Below are positions 16,568 through 24,648 of a DNA stretch of 64,000 bases, piece after piece. The first letter of the stretch is position 1; the number at the start of each line of letters is the position of its first letter. The position numbers were made by a program, and so were the translations under genes. The notes beneath the pieces are model-generated. The model made no database searches. It was not told the DNA's origin and worked only from the letters and a program-made list of their open reading frames with translations. This DNA comes from Flavobacteriales bacterium (GTDB taxonomy: Bacteria; Bacteroidota; Bacteroidia; Flavobacteriales_F; PHOS-HE28): NCBI GenBank assembly GCA_016788295.1, contig JAEUSY010000003.1, positions 1 to 64,000 on the forward strand, read 5' to 3'.

Positions 16568-17202
16568 TGGACAACCTCGCGTTGGACCGGCTCCGTGATG
16601 CGCTCCGTGGTCCCCTGCCCGGCCACGACCGTTTCCTGGAACTTTCTGGCTACAAGCGCCCGGACCTTGAGCGTGCCCGCGCGGCCGACCCACCACCGCG
16701 TGAAAGCGCTGTGCTGGCGCTGCTTTTCCCGCAGGACGGCCAGTGGCGCACCTTGCTGATGCGCCGCCCCGATTACGAGGGCGTGCACGGCGGACAGATC
16801 TCCTTCCCCGGCGGGCGCTGGGAGCCGCAGGACGCCACGTTGGAGCACACCGCCCTCCGCGAGTTCATGGAAGAGACTGGCGCTTTGGACACGCGGATCG
16901 AAGTGCTGGGGCAACTGAGCCCCGTGTACATCCCGCCGAGCCGTTCGCTGGTAACACCGTTCGTTGGCATTGCCGAGGCACTTGCGCCCGTGGCCCCCGA
17001 CCCGCGCGAAGTGGCCGAACTGATCCACCTGCCGCTGTACCTGCTGCTGCGCGACGACATCCTGAAACGCCGCGAGCAGTACATCCAGGTGATGGGCCGC
17101 AGCGTGGAGATCCCCTACTTCGATGTGCACGGCCATGTGGTGTGGGGCGCCACGGCCATGATGCTGGCCGAACTACGCGAGCTCCTGCACGGGCTCCGGT
17201 AG
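16567..17202 (+). CDS. NUDIX hydrolase, CoA-pyrophosphatase-like
   Basis: The 211-residue protein carries a full Nudix box at residues 82-105: GG.WE at its start, then REFMEETG (98-105), the GX5EX7REUXEEXGU pattern with metal-binding glutamates. The segment VHGGQISFPGG before the box is the signature of the CoA pyrophosphatase (NudL/PCD1) subgroup, which splits CoA into 3',5'-ADP and phosphopantetheine. The gene's last 30 bp overlap the 3' end of the convergent cyclase gene. Substrate is inferred from the subgroup only. Confidence 0.85.
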   Translation: MDNLALDRLRDALRGPLPGHDRFLELSGYKRPDLERARAADPPPRESAVLALLFPQDGQWRTLLMRRPDYEGVHGGQISFPGGRWEPQDATLEHTALREFMEETGALDTRIEVLGQLSPVYIPPSRSLVTPFVGIAEALAPVAPDPREVAELIHLPLYLLLRDDILKRREQYIQVMGRSVEIPYFDVHGHVVWGATAMMLAELRELLHGLR

Positions 17203-20200
17203 GCCGCATTCCTTGCGGAAACGGGCATTGGGCACCAGTCCGCGCTCGTCGGCGCTGAACTCCGGCTTGATGCGCTTCACGAAGTACATGTCGATCTTGC
17301 CCTTGTTCTTGGCCTCCACCTGGCCGCGGTGCTCGCACACGAAGTGGTCCTTGATCAGCGCGTAGGTGGTGCCGCTCACGTTCACTTCGCCGGGTTCGCC
17401 GCTGCTTTCCATGCGGCTGGCGGTGTTCACGGCATCGCCCCAGATATCGTAGGCGAACTTGCGCTTGCCCACCACACCGGCCACCACCGGACCCGAGTGC
17501 AGGCCGATACGCAGGATCCATGGTTCCTTGCCACGTGCCTCGTGCTCCTTGCGCCAGCCGTCCATCATCTCGCGCACTTCCAGCGCGGCCATCACCGAGC
17601 GGGTGGCGTGCGCGGGATCGCTGGAAGGCACACCGCTGGCGCACATGTAGCTGTCGCCGATGGTCTTGATCTTCTCGATGCCGTAGCGCCCGATGATCTC
17701 ATCGAACTTGATGAAGCACTCGTCCAGCTCGCTCACCAGCTCTTCCGGGGTCATCTTCTCGGCGGCCTTGGTAAAGCCTTTCATGTCGGTGAACATCACC
17801 GTTACGGCATCGTGGCGCCGTGCGGTGGCCTTGCCCTTGTCCTTCAGTTCATCGCTGATCTGTTTGGGCAGGATGTTCAGCAGCAGGTCCTCGATCCGCA
17901 CTTTCTGGCCTTCGATCTCCTTGCTCTGGGCCACCACTTCGGCAGTACGCTCCTGCACCCTGCGCTCCAGTATCTGGTTGCGCAACCGCAGTTGCCGTTC
18001 GCGGAATTTGATCCAGCTGATCACGGTAATGGCGATAACCAGGGTTAGCGCGGTGTAGAACCACCAGCTCTGCCACCAGGGCGGCAGTATAGTGAAGGCC
18101 AGTTCAGCGGGCTTCTCGCTCCACAGCCCTGCCCTGTTCATGCTCTTCACCTTGAAGGTGTAGGCGCCCGGCGGCAGTGCCGGGTAGTAGGCATCGGTCT
18201 CGGTGGTCAGGGGCTGCCACTCCTTGTCCAGACCGTCCAGTTGGTAGGCGTAGCGCACGGCCCCGGGGTCGCTGAGGCTAACGGTGCCGTAATAGATGCG
18301 GATGCTGCGTTCGCTGTGCCCGAGCCGCAGGTCCTGTTCCAGTGCCCGGTCCTCCAGATTGATGTTGAGGCCGCGCAGCGCCACCAGCGGCGGCAGTGCG
18401 GCCATGCCCCCTTTCTCGGGCACCACGCGCGTGGCCCCGCGTGCCGTGCCGAACCAGAGGTCGCCCTTGCGGGTAAGGCATGCTGCGCTCGGCTTGGCCT
18501 CCACGCCGATAAAGCCCGAACGCTCGGTGTAGGCCAGGAACCCTTCCTGCCCCGGACGCCAGCTGTTGAGGCCGCTCACCGTGCCGATCCAGATGTTGCC
18601 ATCGGCATCGCGCATCAGCGAACGGATGGTATTGTCCAGCAGGCCATCCTCCTTGGAGAAGATCTGTTCCTGCTTGCCGTTCTTCAGCACGAACACGCCC
18701 TGGTTGCGCGAACCCACCCACAGGCGCCCTTCGGTGTCCTGCACAAAGCACGAGGGCGAGAGCGCTCGGTCCAGGTCCACCTTGGTGGCCTTGCCGTTGT
18801 CGATACGGGTGATGCCCTTGTCCTTGCTGCCCACCCAAATGGTGCCTTTGTCGTCGCGGAACAGCGCTGTAACGGGTGTGGTGGGCACGCCATCGTCATC
18901 GCCGTACACCATGGGCGGCGCACCGGCCGAATAGCGGCGCAGGCCCGTAACGGTGCCGATCCACAGCTCGCCGGGTTGGCCAATGGCCAGTGCGGTCACC
19001 TTGCCGCGCGGGATCAGGATGTCGAGGTCGGGGTGCGGGATCGGTTGGAACGCGTTGGGGTCCAGTTCCAGGATGCCGTTGGTCTCCGAACCCACCCACA
19101 CATTGCCACGCGCATCCTCCACAATGCTGCGCACGCGGCTGGTCTTCACCGTTTGTAGGGTCTTCACCATGCCGGTGCCCTGCACCTTGGGGTCCAGGAT
19201 GGAAATGCCGCCATCGGTGCCGAACCACAGCCGGCCGCTGCGGTCTTCCATCACGGCCCATACCTGTTGGTCCAGCAGGCCGTCCTGTTCCAGCAGGTTC
19301 AGGAACCGTTCGCCCTTGAAGATCTGCAGGCCATAGTCGCCGGTGGCCAGCAGCATGTTGCCTTCACGATCGCGACCAATGGTGCGGATCAGCAGGCTCT
19401 CCAGTCCGTTGGCCGGGTAGTAGTGGCGGCGCACACCGTTCAGGCCGATCACAGCGGCACCACCGCCCCAGGTACCCACCCACACCTGGCCTGCGGCATC
19501 CTCGCCGAAGCACGATACCAGGTTGCTCGGCAGGCCATTGCCCGTGTTGTAGTTCACCACCTGGCCGGTGCGCGGGTCGCGGCAGAAGGCACCGCTGGAA
19601 ATGGTGCCCAGCCACAGGCGGCCCTCGCCGTCCTCGAACACCGCGTTCACCCCGAGCACGTCCTGCAGGCCGCTCCACTCCAGCGTGGCGAAGCGTTTGG
19701 CCGCAGCGTTCCACTTCTTCAGCGTGCCGCCATCCTCCAGGAAGGCCATGGTGCCATCGCGCAGCCGGCGCACGTCCAGCAGGTGGTCCACCAGGCCTTC
19801 GTTGCCGCCGTAGCGCTGCACGGTCAGCAGGCCATCGGGTGCCACGGCGGTAACGTGCAGCACGCCCTGGCCCATGGTGGTTATCCAGTAGCTGCCGTCG
19901 GCGTCCTGCTCCAGGCCGGTAATGTCCGCCGTAAGGCTTCCCTCGCCCAGACGCAGGGTGGTGAACCGCTGTCCGGTGCGCAGCGAAAGCCCGCCGCCGG
20001 TATGGCCCACCCACAGGCGGCCATCGCTGTCCATCATCAACTTGCGCGCTCCCTTGGGCGCAAGGCCCTCATCGGGACCGAAGGACTGCAGGCCCACGCG
20101 GTCGCGGCCGTCGAAGCTCACCAGGCCGTCCTCGGTGCCCAGCCACACCAGGCCGGTGCTGTCCTGCAGCACGGCGTACACGTTGCTGGTGGGCAGGCCG

Positions 20201-20295
20201 TTCTGCACATCCAGTCGCTCGAAGTAGAAACGTTGGGCCTGCATGCCCAGGGTGAGCAGGCAGGCGCTTAGGTAGGCCGAAAGGCGCAGGTTCAT
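17173..20295 (-). CDS. Two-component-regulator-type beta-propeller receptor with class III adenylate cyclase
   Basis: The 1040-residue protein has a signal peptide, then about 12-14 propeller repeats of the kind GRLWVGT..G (residues 25-640), a Y_Y_Y immunoglobulin-like domain (DGLDKEWQPL, YTFKVKS), one transmembrane helix (about 741-763), a coiled coil, and a cytoplasmic class III cyclase. Metal ligands are D837 (FTDMKGFT) and D881 (TIGDSYM). The base-selecting pair is K875 and D950 (YDIWGDAVN), the adenylate combination, and N957/R961 complete the transition-state set. This predicts extracellular sensing coupled to cAMP synthesis. Its start is 13 bp after the stop of the pseudo-caspase gene. 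Confidence 0.88.
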   Translation of the reverse strand: MNLRLSAYLSACLLTLGMQAQRFYFERLDVQNGLPTSNVYAVLQDSTGLVWLGTEDGLVSFDGRDRVGLQSFGPDEGLAPKGARKLMMDSDGRLWVGHTGGGLSLRTGQRFTTLRLGEGSLTADITGLEQDADGSYWITTMGQGVLHVTAVAPDGLLTVQRYGGNEGLVDHLLDVRRLRDGTMAFLEDGGTLKKWNAAAKRFATLEWSGLQDVLGVNAVFEDGEGRLWLGTISSGAFCRDPRTGQVVNYNTGNGLPSNLVSCFGEDAAGQVWVGTWGGGAAVIGLNGVRRHYYPANGLESLLIRTIGRDREGNMLLATGDYGLQIFKGERFLNLLEQDGLLDQQVWAVMEDRSGRLWFGTDGGISILDPKVQGTGMVKTLQTVKTSRVRSIVEDARGNVWVGSETNGILELDPNAFQPIPHPDLDILIPRGKVTALAIGQPGELWIGTVTGLRRYSAGAPPMVYGDDDGVPTTPVTALFRDDKGTIWVGSKDKGITRIDNGKATKVDLDRALSPSCFVQDTEGRLWVGSRNQGVFVLKNGKQEQIFSKEDGLLDNTIRSLMRDADGNIWIGTVSGLNSWRPGQEGFLAYTERSGFIGVEAKPSAACLTRKGDLWFGTARGATRVVPEKGGMAALPPLVALRGLNINLEDRALEQDLRLGHSERSIRIYYGTVSLSDPGAVRYAYQLDGLDKEWQPLTTETDAYYPALPPGAYTFKVKSMNRAGLWSEKPAELAFTILPPWWQSWWFYTALTLVIAITVISWIKFRERQLRLRNQILERRVQERTAEVVAQSKEIEGQKVRIEDLLLNILPKQISDELKDKGKATARRHDAVTVMFTDMKGFTKAAEKMTPEELVSELDECFIKFDEIIGRYGIEKIKTIGDSYMCASGVPSSDPAHATRSVMAALEVREMMDGWRKEHEARGKEPWILRIGLHSGPVVAGVVGKRKFAYDIWGDAVNTASRMESSGEPGEVNVSGTTYALIKDHFVCEHRGQVEAKNKGKIDMYFVKRIKPEFSADERGLVPNARFRKECGLPEPVQELA

Positions 20296-20308
20296 GCAGG
20301 AGTTCGGT

Positions 20309-22507
20309 TCAGCGGGAAAGGTCGTAGAAGCTGGCCTCCGATCCGGCGGCATCGCTCACCACCAGCGCGTTGCTCACGCTCTCGCTGTAGTTCTGGATCA
20401 GGTTCTTCAGGGGGCCGTAGTTGTAGAAGGAATAGATGTCGTCCTTCTTCGCGTCCACGGGTATCCAAAAGCTCTTGCCGCCCACGGTGCGCCCGTGCCC
20501 GGCGTACCACACCAGCACGGTGTTCACCTTGTTGGTGCGCACCAGGTCGCGCAGTTCGGTGCTGAAGAAGCGCTCCAACTGCTGCTTGGTCAGGTTCTTT
20601 TTGGTGATGGTCTTCTGCACGTTGTACTTGGCGAAGGCCTTTTGCATCTTGGCCACATCGCTGCCCGCGCCCGGCAATGCGGGGAAGCTCTTGTAGTCGC
20701 TGTTCTCGATGTAGATCACCCAGGTGGTGCCCGAGGTCACCGCCGCACCGGCCATGGGCTTCTCGGCCGGCTTCTCCGCGGGCTTGGGCTCTGTTCCGGT
20801 GGGCTCTGCCGGCTTCACCACGGCCACCGCTTCGGCCTTGCGCTGCAGCTGGTACACCACATCGGTGCCGTTGCCGAACTGGTCCTCGGCGCGCACGGTG
20901 AACCGGTCCTTGCCGGCGATCACCAGCTTCATGCTGAAATCGGTGCGGTTGGTGTCGGGCACGTAGCTCGCCAAAATGCCGTCCACCGTGATGGAGCGGA
21001 TGTTGCTCGCATCGCTCACGGTGCCTTCAATGAAGAGGTCCTCGCGCGTGGCGGAGATGTGGATGATGCGGTCGCTGCCGGGATCGGGCGCGGTGAGGGC
21101 CACCACCGGCGGCACCCCTTCGTTGCGCTCCACGCGCAGGCTCACGGTGCTCTCGTTGTCGTACACGTCCACGGCGGTCACCACCAGTTCCTTGTCATTG
21201 ACCCCGATGGGAATGGCCACGAAGAACTCCGGATCACGCTCGTCCCGCGCAAAGTCCGCCTCCATGCCGTTCACGGTGATGCGCTTCAGCTTGTTTCGGT
21301 CGCGCACGTGGCCGTCCACCTTCACCCGTGTAAGCACGGAGCTGATCTGGGCCACGCCGCCCCGGTGTACGGGGTCCACAATGGTGATCACCGGCGGATC
21401 GCTCTCGCGGTTCATCTCGAACAGCTGGCGGTCCACGCGGTCGCGCTGTTCCTGCACCTTGCGGCGGAAGTCGGCATCGTAGGCCGCATTGCCGTCCATG
21501 ATCCGCTTGGCCGCGTCCAGGTCGTTGATCGCGCCTTCCAGGTCCAGGTTGGCCTCGCGGCATTCGGCCCTGAACAGCAGCAGCTCCATGTCGCGCGGGT
21601 CGGCCAGCAGGGGTTTGTTCAGGTCGTTCACGGCGTTCTGGTGCTGGCCGTAGCCGTGGTAGTAGCGCGCCCGCTGCAGGTACACCGCGCGGTCCGTGCG
21701 CCCCAGGGCCATGCACCGGCTCACATCATCAATGGCCTTGGCGTATTCCTTCTGCAGGGCCAGGGCCTTGCTGCGCGAGAACAGGGCATCGGTGCTCTGC
21801 GGGTTCAGCTCCAGCGCGCGCGTGCATTTGGCAATGGCTTTCTCCAACGTGCGCATCTGCATGGTAGGGCCGGTGTACTGCTCGTACAGTTTCAACTGCA
21901 CTTCCGATTGCGCCACATAGGCCGCCTCGTACATGGGGTTCCACTCCACCACCTTGTCCAGGTCGAACTCGGCCGTCTTGTAGTCGCGTGTGGCGGTGCG
22001 CACCAGGCCGTGCAGGTAATAGGTGTCGGTGGTGGCCTTCAGCGCCAGGGCCGCATCGGCCGCCGTGCTGGCGCAATCCAGGTCGTTCAGGGCCAGGCAC
22101 GCGCGCACCTTGGCCTGCAGCGCCTTCATGTGCTTGGCGTTCACGCGCAGGGCACCATCGCACAGGGCAAGCGCTTTCCGGGCGCTGTCCACCTCCAGGT
22201 AGGCCATGGCCGCAGCGGCGCCCGCATCGGCATCGCTGGGGTCGGCGGCGTAGGCGGCGGCCAGGTCGGCAGCGCGCTCGGCATTGCGCCCCAGCAGGCC
22301 GTACACATCGGCCCGGGCCACATAGGCGGCCACTAGTTTGGGGTCCACCTGTATGGCCAGCGTGTACTTCTCCAGCGCGGGCTCCAACTGCTGCTGGGCG
22401 CGCAGCTTCTCGCCCTCCTTAAAGAACGCCTTGCCTGATTGCCCGAAGGCACCGAGCGTGAGGAAGGATACAAGCAGCAGGACGGAACGGAGCGGGTGCA
22501 TGGCCAT
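20309..22507 (-). CDS. TPR protein with C-terminal truncated caspase fold (pseudo-caspase)
   Basis: The 732-residue protein has a signal peptide, TPR repeats (about 25-330), two beta-sandwich or Big-like segments (370-560; IVDPVHRGG, ITVNGMEA), a Pro-rich linker, and a caspase/C14 region from about residue 595 (WVIYIENSDYKSFPALPGAGSDV). The catalytic His is present (H671, WYAGHG), but the cysteine block DACxSG reads DAAGSE (719-724): Ala721 replaces Cys, and the protein stops eight residues later, lacking the p10-like part. Peptidase activity is therefore unlikely. The cyclase gene begins 13 bp downstream. A start at 22501 is equally possible. Confidence 0.82.
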   Translation of the reverse strand: MAMHPLRSVLLLVSFLTLGAFGQSGKAFFKEGEKLRAQQQLEPALEKYTLAIQVDPKLVAAYVARADVYGLLGRNAERAADLAAAYAADPSDADAGAAAAMAYLEVDSARKALALCDGALRVNAKHMKALQAKVRACLALNDLDCASTAADAALALKATTDTYYLHGLVRTATRDYKTAEFDLDKVVEWNPMYEAAYVAQSEVQLKLYEQYTGPTMQMRTLEKAIAKCTRALELNPQSTDALFSRSKALALQKEYAKAIDDVSRCMALGRTDRAVYLQRARYYHGYGQHQNAVNDLNKPLLADPRDMELLLFRAECREANLDLEGAINDLDAAKRIMDGNAAYDADFRRKVQEQRDRVDRQLFEMNRESDPPVITIVDPVHRGGVAQISSVLTRVKVDGHVRDRNKLKRITVNGMEADFARDERDPEFFVAIPIGVNDKELVVTAVDVYDNESTVSLRVERNEGVPPVVALTAPDPGSDRIIHISATREDLFIEGTVSDASNIRSITVDGILASYVPDTNRTDFSMKLVIAGKDRFTVRAEDQFGNGTDVVYQLQRKAEAVAVVKPAEPTGTEPKPAEKPAEKPMAGAAVTSGTTWVIYIENSDYKSFPALPGAGSDVAKMQKAFAKYNVQKTITKKNLTKQQLERFFSTELRDLVRTNKVNTVLVWYAGHGRTVGGKSFWIPVDAKKDDIYSFYNYGPLKNLIQNYSESVSNALVVSDAAGSEASFYDLSR

Positions 22508-23502: not shown

Positions 23503-24648
23503 TCAGCTGTTCGCCTTGATATACGCCTCCAGCTTGCCCTCTTTCCGCAGCTTCAGCAGTTTCTCGGCGCCTTTGTTGGGCCCTAGGGCATCGCGGTTCT
23601 TCTCGTAGAAATCCAGCACGTGGGTGGTGGCGTATTGGTTGGCCTCCACCACGTTGTTGGTGTTGCGCAGCACATACTTGGCATAGGCACCGAGGTAGAT
23701 CACCAGGCACTCGGCCTGGTCCATGTAGGGCACGATCTTCTCCTTGATCTCCACCGTTACCAACGAGGTATTGGTGATCCACACGATCAGGTCGGCGTTC
23801 ACCTTCTTTCGTTTGTCCGGTTCGGTGCCCACGGGTGTGTTGTAGAGCCAATCGAACCACTCCACGGCCTGGGTGGCCTCGTCGCTCTGTTCGCCGGTGG
23901 CCGTGGTGGTGCCGGTGGTGGGGGCCGGTGTGCTGAACACGGCCTTGGTAACGTCGGGGTGGATCTTGGCGCCGCGCTCCCGGGCGCGTTGCAGGTAGGT
24001 GCGGGCCTCGTCGGTGCGCCCGGCGTAGTAGTGGATAAGGCCCACCATGTGGTAGCCATCGGGCAGGTGAGGGTCATCGGTGCGCTGGTAAATGGCCAGG
24101 GCTTTTTCGGCGTTCACCAAGGCCTCGTCGAACTGCTTCTGCTGCATCTGCACATTAGCCAGCCCGAAATACCCTTCGGCACTTTCCGGGTGGTACTTCA
24201 CCAGGGCCTGGTAGTCCTTCTTGGCGCTGGCCAGATCGCCTTTGATGGAGTGTACCACGGCCAGGTTCATGCGGGCCATTTCGCCCTCGGGATAGAGCTT
24301 CAGTGACTTGTTGTAGCACTTGATGGCATCGTCGTACTGCCCGGCCTGGCGGTACACCTGCCCCAGGTTGTCATAGGCCTCAATGAACTTGGGGTCTTCC
24401 TTCAGCGCCTTGTTGTAAGAGCGCATGGCCGCTGCGAGATCGCCCCGCTGATGCTCGCGCACGCCCTGCCGGTAATAGGCCATGGCCTGTTCGGAAGCGC
24501 TGCCCTCGTACATGCCGGAGGCGCGGCCTGACACACGCATGGCGCTACCGTCCTCGGTGCGCACGGTCTCCACGCTGGTGCCCGATTGTGCCCAAGAGCA
24601 GGTGGCGGTCAGTAGGAAGAAGCACAAGGTATGGGCGAGGTGTCGCAT
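23503..24648 (-). CDS. Secreted TPR-repeat protein
   Basis: The 381-residue protein has a signal peptide (cleavage near SWAQSG), then five or six TPRs between about residues 50 and 220 (for example AMRSYNKALKEDPKFIEAYDNLG). A Thr- and Ala-rich linker follows (PAPTTGTTTATGEQ), then a helical C-terminal domain of about 130 residues (WITNTSLVTVEIKEKIVPYM) without a known signature. It is likely periplasmic and interaction-mediating. It diverges from the gene at 24730. Confidence 0.72.
   Translation of the reverse strand: MRHLAHTLCFFLLTATCSWAQSGTSVETVRTEDGSAMRVSGRASGMYEGSASEQAMAYYRQGVREHQRGDLAAAMRSYNKALKEDPKFIEAYDNLGQVYRQAGQYDDAIKCYNKSLKLYPEGEMARMNLAVVHSIKGDLASAKKDYQALVKYHPESAEGYFGLANVQMQQKQFDEALVNAEKALAIYQRTDDPHLPDGYHMVGLIHYYAGRTDEARTYLQRARERGAKIHPDVTKAVFSTPAPTTGTTTATGEQSDEATQAVEWFDWLYNTPVGTEPDKRKKVNADLIVWITNTSLVTVEIKEKIVPYMDQAECLVIYLGAYAKYVLRNTNNVVEANQYATTHVLDFYEKNRDALGPNKGAEKLLKLRKEGKLEAYIKANS

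Follow-up and report, generated by a model that had tools for sequence, protein, structure and literature searches.

Organization of the locus

The window (the whole stretch of DNA that was analyzed, 64,000 nucleotides of a contig from a Flavobacteriales bacterium) carries on its minus strand a gene that reads 22507 -> 20309, from an ATG at 22507 to a TGA at 20311-20309, and codes for a protein of 732 aa, referred to below as the pseudo-caspase. The initial annotation had placed a sensor cyclase gene 13 bp further on. This gene is indeed present: it starts with the ATG at 20295 and its product carries Reg_prop/Y_Y_Y and Guanylate_cyc domains. The 13-bp gap (20296..20308) holds no remnant of the missing caspase C-terminal part. 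The coordinates of both genes and their features are listed in Table 1. Upstream of the pseudo-caspase gene, a TPR protein is encoded (window positions 23503-24648, minus strand). Unlike the cyclase gene, this neighbor is not shared by the other compared loci of the lineage, which have a different gene at that position.

Table 1. Features of the pseudo-caspase gene and of the adjacent sensor cyclase gene (window coordinates)
Feature	Position	Strand	Basis
Pseudo-caspase gene, 732 aa (signal peptide, TPR, two Ig-like domains, p20)	20309..22507	(-)	Sequence, Pfam, model
Signal peptide, residues 1-22, no lipobox Cys seen	22442..22507	(-)	Sequence
TPR solenoid (residues 25-365), modeled with about 20 helices	21413..22435	(-)	Pfam TPR matches; pLDDT mostly >95
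Two Ig-like beta-sandwich domains, residues 370-560	20828..21400	(-)	Model
Disordered Pro/Lys/Glu linker, residues 561-591	20735..20827	(-)	pLDDT about 40; 22% mean identity in genus
Pseudo-caspase p20 domain, residues 592-732	20312..20734	(-)	Pfam, predicted structure
His671 codon, catalytic His position	20495..20497	(-)	Sequence, alignment
Ala721 codon (GCC), catalytic Cys position	20345..20347	(-)	Sequence, alignment
Intergenic gap, 13 bp, pseudo-caspase stop to start codon of the cyclase gene	20296..20308	(-)	Sequence
Sensor adenylate cyclase gene, 1040 aa, ATG at 20295	17173..20295	(-)	Sequence, Pfam
Reg_prop propellers and Y_Y_Y domain, predicted to be periplasmic; ortholog of the sensor part of the SpoIIE partners	18076..20238	(-)	Pfam, searches, tree
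Inferred fusion junction in the signaling coiled coil, about residues 790-803	17887..17928	(-)	blastp of partner proteins
Class III adenylate cyclase catalytic domain, residues 825-1007	17275..17823	(-)	Pfam, alignment

The source genome is one of several uncultured Flavobacteriales-like MAGs, which represent the only genus of their order among the genomes searched. Relatives were gathered from whole genomes and from a named genome collection. The locus counts given below include MAGs, and the loci are not independent events.

Domain architecture of the pseudo-caspase

Cleavage of the signal peptide is expected before Gln23, a column that is invariant in 57 homologues, and the mature protein is probably secreted or periplasmic. 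For the Ig-like region, we obtained a weak profile match to the structure of a biofilm surface protein. None of the Pfam Ig models that define paracaspases matched, yet the predicted structure has two Ig-like folds; the paracaspase MALT1 gave a weak profile hit (E 0.06). In fold searches with the full models, matches to the TPR part dominated, so that nothing was learned about the caspase part.

The p20 domain is recognized by the Pfam profile Peptidase_C14 (PF00656) on residues 597-697 with E 6e-9 and 36.3 bits, above the curated cut-off of 21.4, the match covering only positions 4-108 of the 233 model positions. Strands b1-b4 and helices a1-a3 are retained in the predicted structure. Comparison with the predicted structure of an active relative (L078) shows that the later elements, b5, b6, and the helices beyond, are gone.

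The motifs on which the initial annotation relied are present: the opening strand WVIYIENSDYK, the His block WYAGHG (His671), and DAAGSE (Asp719-Ala720-Ala721 onward) with Ala721 in place of the catalytic Cys. Only its count of the residues that follow Ala721 had to be corrected, from 8 to 11. The protein thus lacks the Cys of the His/Cys pair as well as the p10-equivalent strands of an active C14 peptidase, which excludes a normal caspase function. With a p20 present, p10 absent, and a dyad residue substituted, it would be classed as a pseudo-orthocaspase by the published sequence criteria (PMC6426788).

Loss of Cys and of the C-terminal part throughout the lineage

The catalytic Cys is absent from all 33 non-identical members of the lineage (31 Ala, 1 Ser, 1 Val), and in each of them the stop lies exactly 11 residues past the Cys position. 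The motif DACESG of the active relatives is changed throughout (C721A, E722G, G724D or E), and the scaffold surrounding the p20 core has kept its residues. Most members keep His (three have lost it, with Ala in two and Leu in one) and the Asp of the DAC motif (Lys or Asn in four). Genus relatives thus share the arrangement noted at this locus, being devoid of Cys and of the C-terminal part, and at every locus with enough sequence the next gene codes for a Reg_prop-cyclase. Homologues with Cys and a full C-terminus, which would have contradicted the proposed loss had they occurred among close relatives, were not found in the order and are restricted to other families.

Mean pairwise identity within the lineage is higher for p20 (73%) than for the TPR (60%) and Ig (57%) parts. 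In the closest pairs, dN/dS of p20 is 0.02-0.17, and p20 has the lowest dN among the domains in most close pairs. Chance, a sequencing frameshift, an assembly error, or a recent pseudogene is ruled out by the 33 identical C-termini together with these dN/dS values. Purifying selection on p20 bears out the initial view that the truncation reflects fixation rather than decay. In the active relatives linked to a SpoIIE-type sensor (see below), p20 is relatively more constrained (71% identity vs. 36% for TPR), so that constraint in the lineage has been relaxed but not lost. The protein is a lineage-wide pseudo-caspase that is under selection and descends from an active caspase homologue.

A Peptidase_C14 search of the source genome, which is about 96% complete, returned no match besides the pseudo-caspase. 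There is thus no active caspase in its own genome that it could inhibit, and the idea that it acts as a dominant negative on a catalytically competent caspase of the cell is rejected for the source genome. Two related genomes (G007 and G034) have a second Peptidase_C14 match each.

Active relatives in other families

Homologues of the same architecture from other families of Bacteroidia carry His, Cys, and 104-106 residues past the Cys; this holds for 51 of the 51 relatives that are linked to a SpoIIE-type sensor. These homologues, with Cys and a full C-terminus, represent the ancestral state. Examples for comparison (L078, L145, L180) are direct relatives with identical domain order, encoded directly before a Reg_prop/Y_Y_Y sensor. 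They differ from the pseudo-caspase by DACESG with its 104-106 further residues and by a sensor output that is SpoIIE, not a cyclase. In a tree computed with the catalytic columns left out, the lineage forms one clade (support 100) which is nested among the active SpoIIE-linked proteins and has a long stem (1.2 changes per column). A phylum-wide search for relatives added nothing new, and a search for plasmid-borne relatives gave TPR matches only.

According to the tree, the family has seen at least three losses of Cys. Separate losses are seen in L225-L229 (f3 g84), where His is replaced by Gln, Glu, or Leu and Cys by Ala, Gly, or Thr; their C-terminus is full-length. Paralogues from family f27 (L244, L253, L255) have DATETG, with Thr for Cys, and their C-terminus is complete; the sensor-linked copies of that family keep Cys. 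Neither of these two sets has a Reg_prop neighbor where the flank is long enough. Some active members (L080, L162, L176, and others) are also devoid of any Reg_prop neighbor. At several loci from Bacteroidales (L164, L169, L170, L187), the TPR-caspase gene has another caspase gene directly upstream of it, which is short (268-275 aa) and retains Cys.

The partner sensor and the exchange of its output domain

The partner of the pseudo-caspase has Reg_prop, Y_Y_Y, and Guanylate_cyc domains (E 2e-56; Reg_prop, PF07494, E 2.6e-56; Y_Y_Y, PF07495, E 1.5e-16). Reg_prop and Y_Y_Y precede a transmembrane helix, which was recognized by eye. When aligned with mammalian adenylate cyclases, the catalytic domain shows both metal-binding Asp residues, the adenine-type Lys/Asp, and the Asn/Arg (motifs FTDMKGF, KTIGDSY, YDIWGD, NTASR).

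The neighbor of the active caspases combines Reg_prop/Y_Y_Y with a SpoIIE-type phosphatase at 51 of the 51 loci where it is this sensor and the output is known; these partners have the same size as the cyclase partners. When the sensor region was used as query, the best match was the caspase-adjacent gene in seven of the nine other-family genomes that hold a caspase. In a tree that includes paralogous Reg_prop proteins, all 30 caspase partners form one clade (SH-aLRT 99), and the cyclase partners are nested inside the SpoIIE partners with support 100. By blastp, residues 12-817 of the partner align with the SpoIIE partner of L078 (12-803 for that of L145), and residues 743-1028 align with a TPR-cyclase of G039 (51%). 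The sensors being orthologous and the fusion point recognizable, it follows that the outer part and the neighbor were kept through an exchange of the output domain. Judged from alignments and tree, the cyclase is a replacement of the SpoIIE phosphatase on an orthologous sensor. Inactivation of the caspase, loss of the C-terminal part, and exchange of the output domain are all placed on a single stem branch. From G020 and G029, which are near-complete genomes of the genus, both genes are missing.

A second Reg_prop/Y_Y_Y-cyclase of G000 (G000:C57:39026; L274, L305) is positioned outside the clade of caspase partners in the tree.

The exchange may belong to a wider re-wiring, as cyclases are more and SpoIIE domains less numerous genome-wide. 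Class III cyclases number 5-6 per genome in the lineage (G000, G004, G010, G020, G029) vs. 1 in the other families searched, and SpoIIE domains 3-4 vs. 9-59. In three genomes of other families, the lone class III cyclase (L268 of G039, L269 of G264, L273 of G257) has an HD-like domain, read from the sequence, that is C-terminal of the cyclase domain.

Comparison with known systems

Pseudo-orthocaspase clades are known chiefly from Alphaproteobacteria and Cyanobacteria (90%), the commonest type being Tyr/Ser, and only 10 of 1078 sequences from Bacteroidetes are of the pseudo type (PMC6426788). The protein described here resembles bacterial pseudo-orthocaspases in having a p20 with a substituted His-Cys dyad, in the absence of p10, and in the extension of these traits over whole lineages (PMC6426788, PMC7889975). 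It is unlike them in that His is kept, Cys is replaced by Ala, the stop is right past the Cys loop, and the partner is a cyclase. A survey of prokaryotic caspase homologues grouped operon neighbors by function and named no link to a cyclase or to SpoIIE (PMC3501461). Our literature search, with most subscription journals outside its scope, retrieved no paper describing a pair of caspase and Reg_prop sensor. The fixed truncation and the coupled output exchange set the protein apart from the known pseudo-orthocaspases.

Outside the inner membrane, PorU, a clan CD cysteine protease, and PorZ, a two-propeller protein of Reg_prop/Y_Y_Y-like build, offer a similar combination, which we consider an analogy and not a common membership; PorU is an active sortase, and PorZ is devoid of a cytoplasmic output. 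Surface exposure of PorU requires PorZ (PMC5121618); this pair may serve as a precedent, and as a lead by analogy, for contact between a protease and a propeller outside the inner membrane. The one-protein sensor BT4663 (PMC5121618) has propellers and Y_Y_Y outside and its signaling domain inside, as does the partner of the pseudo-caspase, but the output is a histidine kinase in BT4663 and an adenylate cyclase here.

A proposed non-enzymatic partner of a re-wired sensor

Our preferred reading, in which we have modest confidence, is that an old secreted pair was converted, the caspase-fold protein having given up enzymatic activity to serve as regulatory partner of a re-wired cAMP sensor. In the ancestor, the gene of an active caspase homologue would already have stood immediately before that of a Reg_prop/Y_Y_Y sensor with a SpoIIE-type phosphatase, and the protease would have touched its cognate sensor outside the inner membrane. 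On the stem of the lineage, the caspase would have lost Cys as well as the C-terminal quarter of its domain; in the sensor, an adenylate cyclase would have taken the place of the phosphatase. The dead p20, with an edge exposed through loss of the C-terminal strands, may now act by binding alone; its binding would gate the propeller/Y_Y_Y sensor, and hence the dimeric cyclase and the cAMP level.

A binding or regulatory module, as proposed in the initial annotation, is what we infer for the remnant; physical contact, gating, and whichever sign the effect may have are likewise conjectural. Because the outer part of the sensor is predicted to be in the same compartment, and because there is no other Peptidase_C14 protein, binding and gating is the simplest reading. 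More tentatively, the locus might represent a Bacteroidia pair in which both chemistries were exchanged about simultaneously with the interface kept, the dead caspase being an extracytoplasmic regulatory subunit of an adenylate cyclase. As the exchange happened once, caspase loss and output exchange are tied by one branch only, and a paired test of Cys state against partner type, with its 2-3 events, has no power. Counting against our preferred reading, most members still have His671, now dispensable for catalysis, and the genus-wide change of outputs could explain the exchange without the caspase.

Alternatively, the protein could be a structural or ligand-binding TPR-Ig scaffold outside the inner membrane which is merely co-expressed with the cyclase, its p20 being kept for another partner or ligand. 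Its TPR and Ig parts are of a kind that serves binding in general, and relatives without a Reg_prop neighbor exist and persist. We nevertheless consider this unlikely, since adjacency to the orthologous sensor is kept across most of the sampled families of Bacteroidia, even through the output exchange, and since G020 and G029 lack the one gene along with the other.

It is less probable again that two unrelated events coincide on one long branch, SpoIIE having been replaced by cyclases genome-wide and caspase catalysis having been lost separately under relaxed selection. Such a coincidence is hard to reconcile with the strong constraint on the remaining p20, with the fixed stop, and with the retention of Cys in 51 of 51 SpoIIE-linked members, even if the genome-wide shift of output domains, the length of the stem branch (1.2 changes per column), and the loss of Cys in two other family branches without sensor neighbor are in its favor.

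Completion of the domain in trans by a separate C-terminal part, or an activity independent of cysteine, might be suggested by His671 and Asp719, kept in most members, but is highly improbable given that no separately encoded C-terminal part was found in 7 lineage genomes (it was found in 3 controls), that three members have no His and four have Lys or Asn instead of Asp, and that the Cys position is occupied by Ala, Ser, or Val.

To our knowledge, few functions of bacterial caspase homologues have been established. That a secreted caspase has remained paired with one orthologous sensor throughout Bacteroidia points to a defined role in signaling across the inner membrane. A natural lineage with a dead but kept caspase separates binding from cutting, and the exchange of an output domain beside a partner that lost its chemistry makes ideas on pseudoenzymes as regulatory subunits testable with one gene pair.

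Junction of the two genes in one subclade

In a subclade of four loci (L004, L005, L007, L008 from G034, G008, G027, G024), the stop of the pseudo-caspase gene is part of the sequence TAG-CCG-ATG, and the cyclase gene is in the same frame. A single read-through would thus give one fused protein. In the family search, this subclade gave a frame of about 1780-1850 aa that is open except for one TAG.
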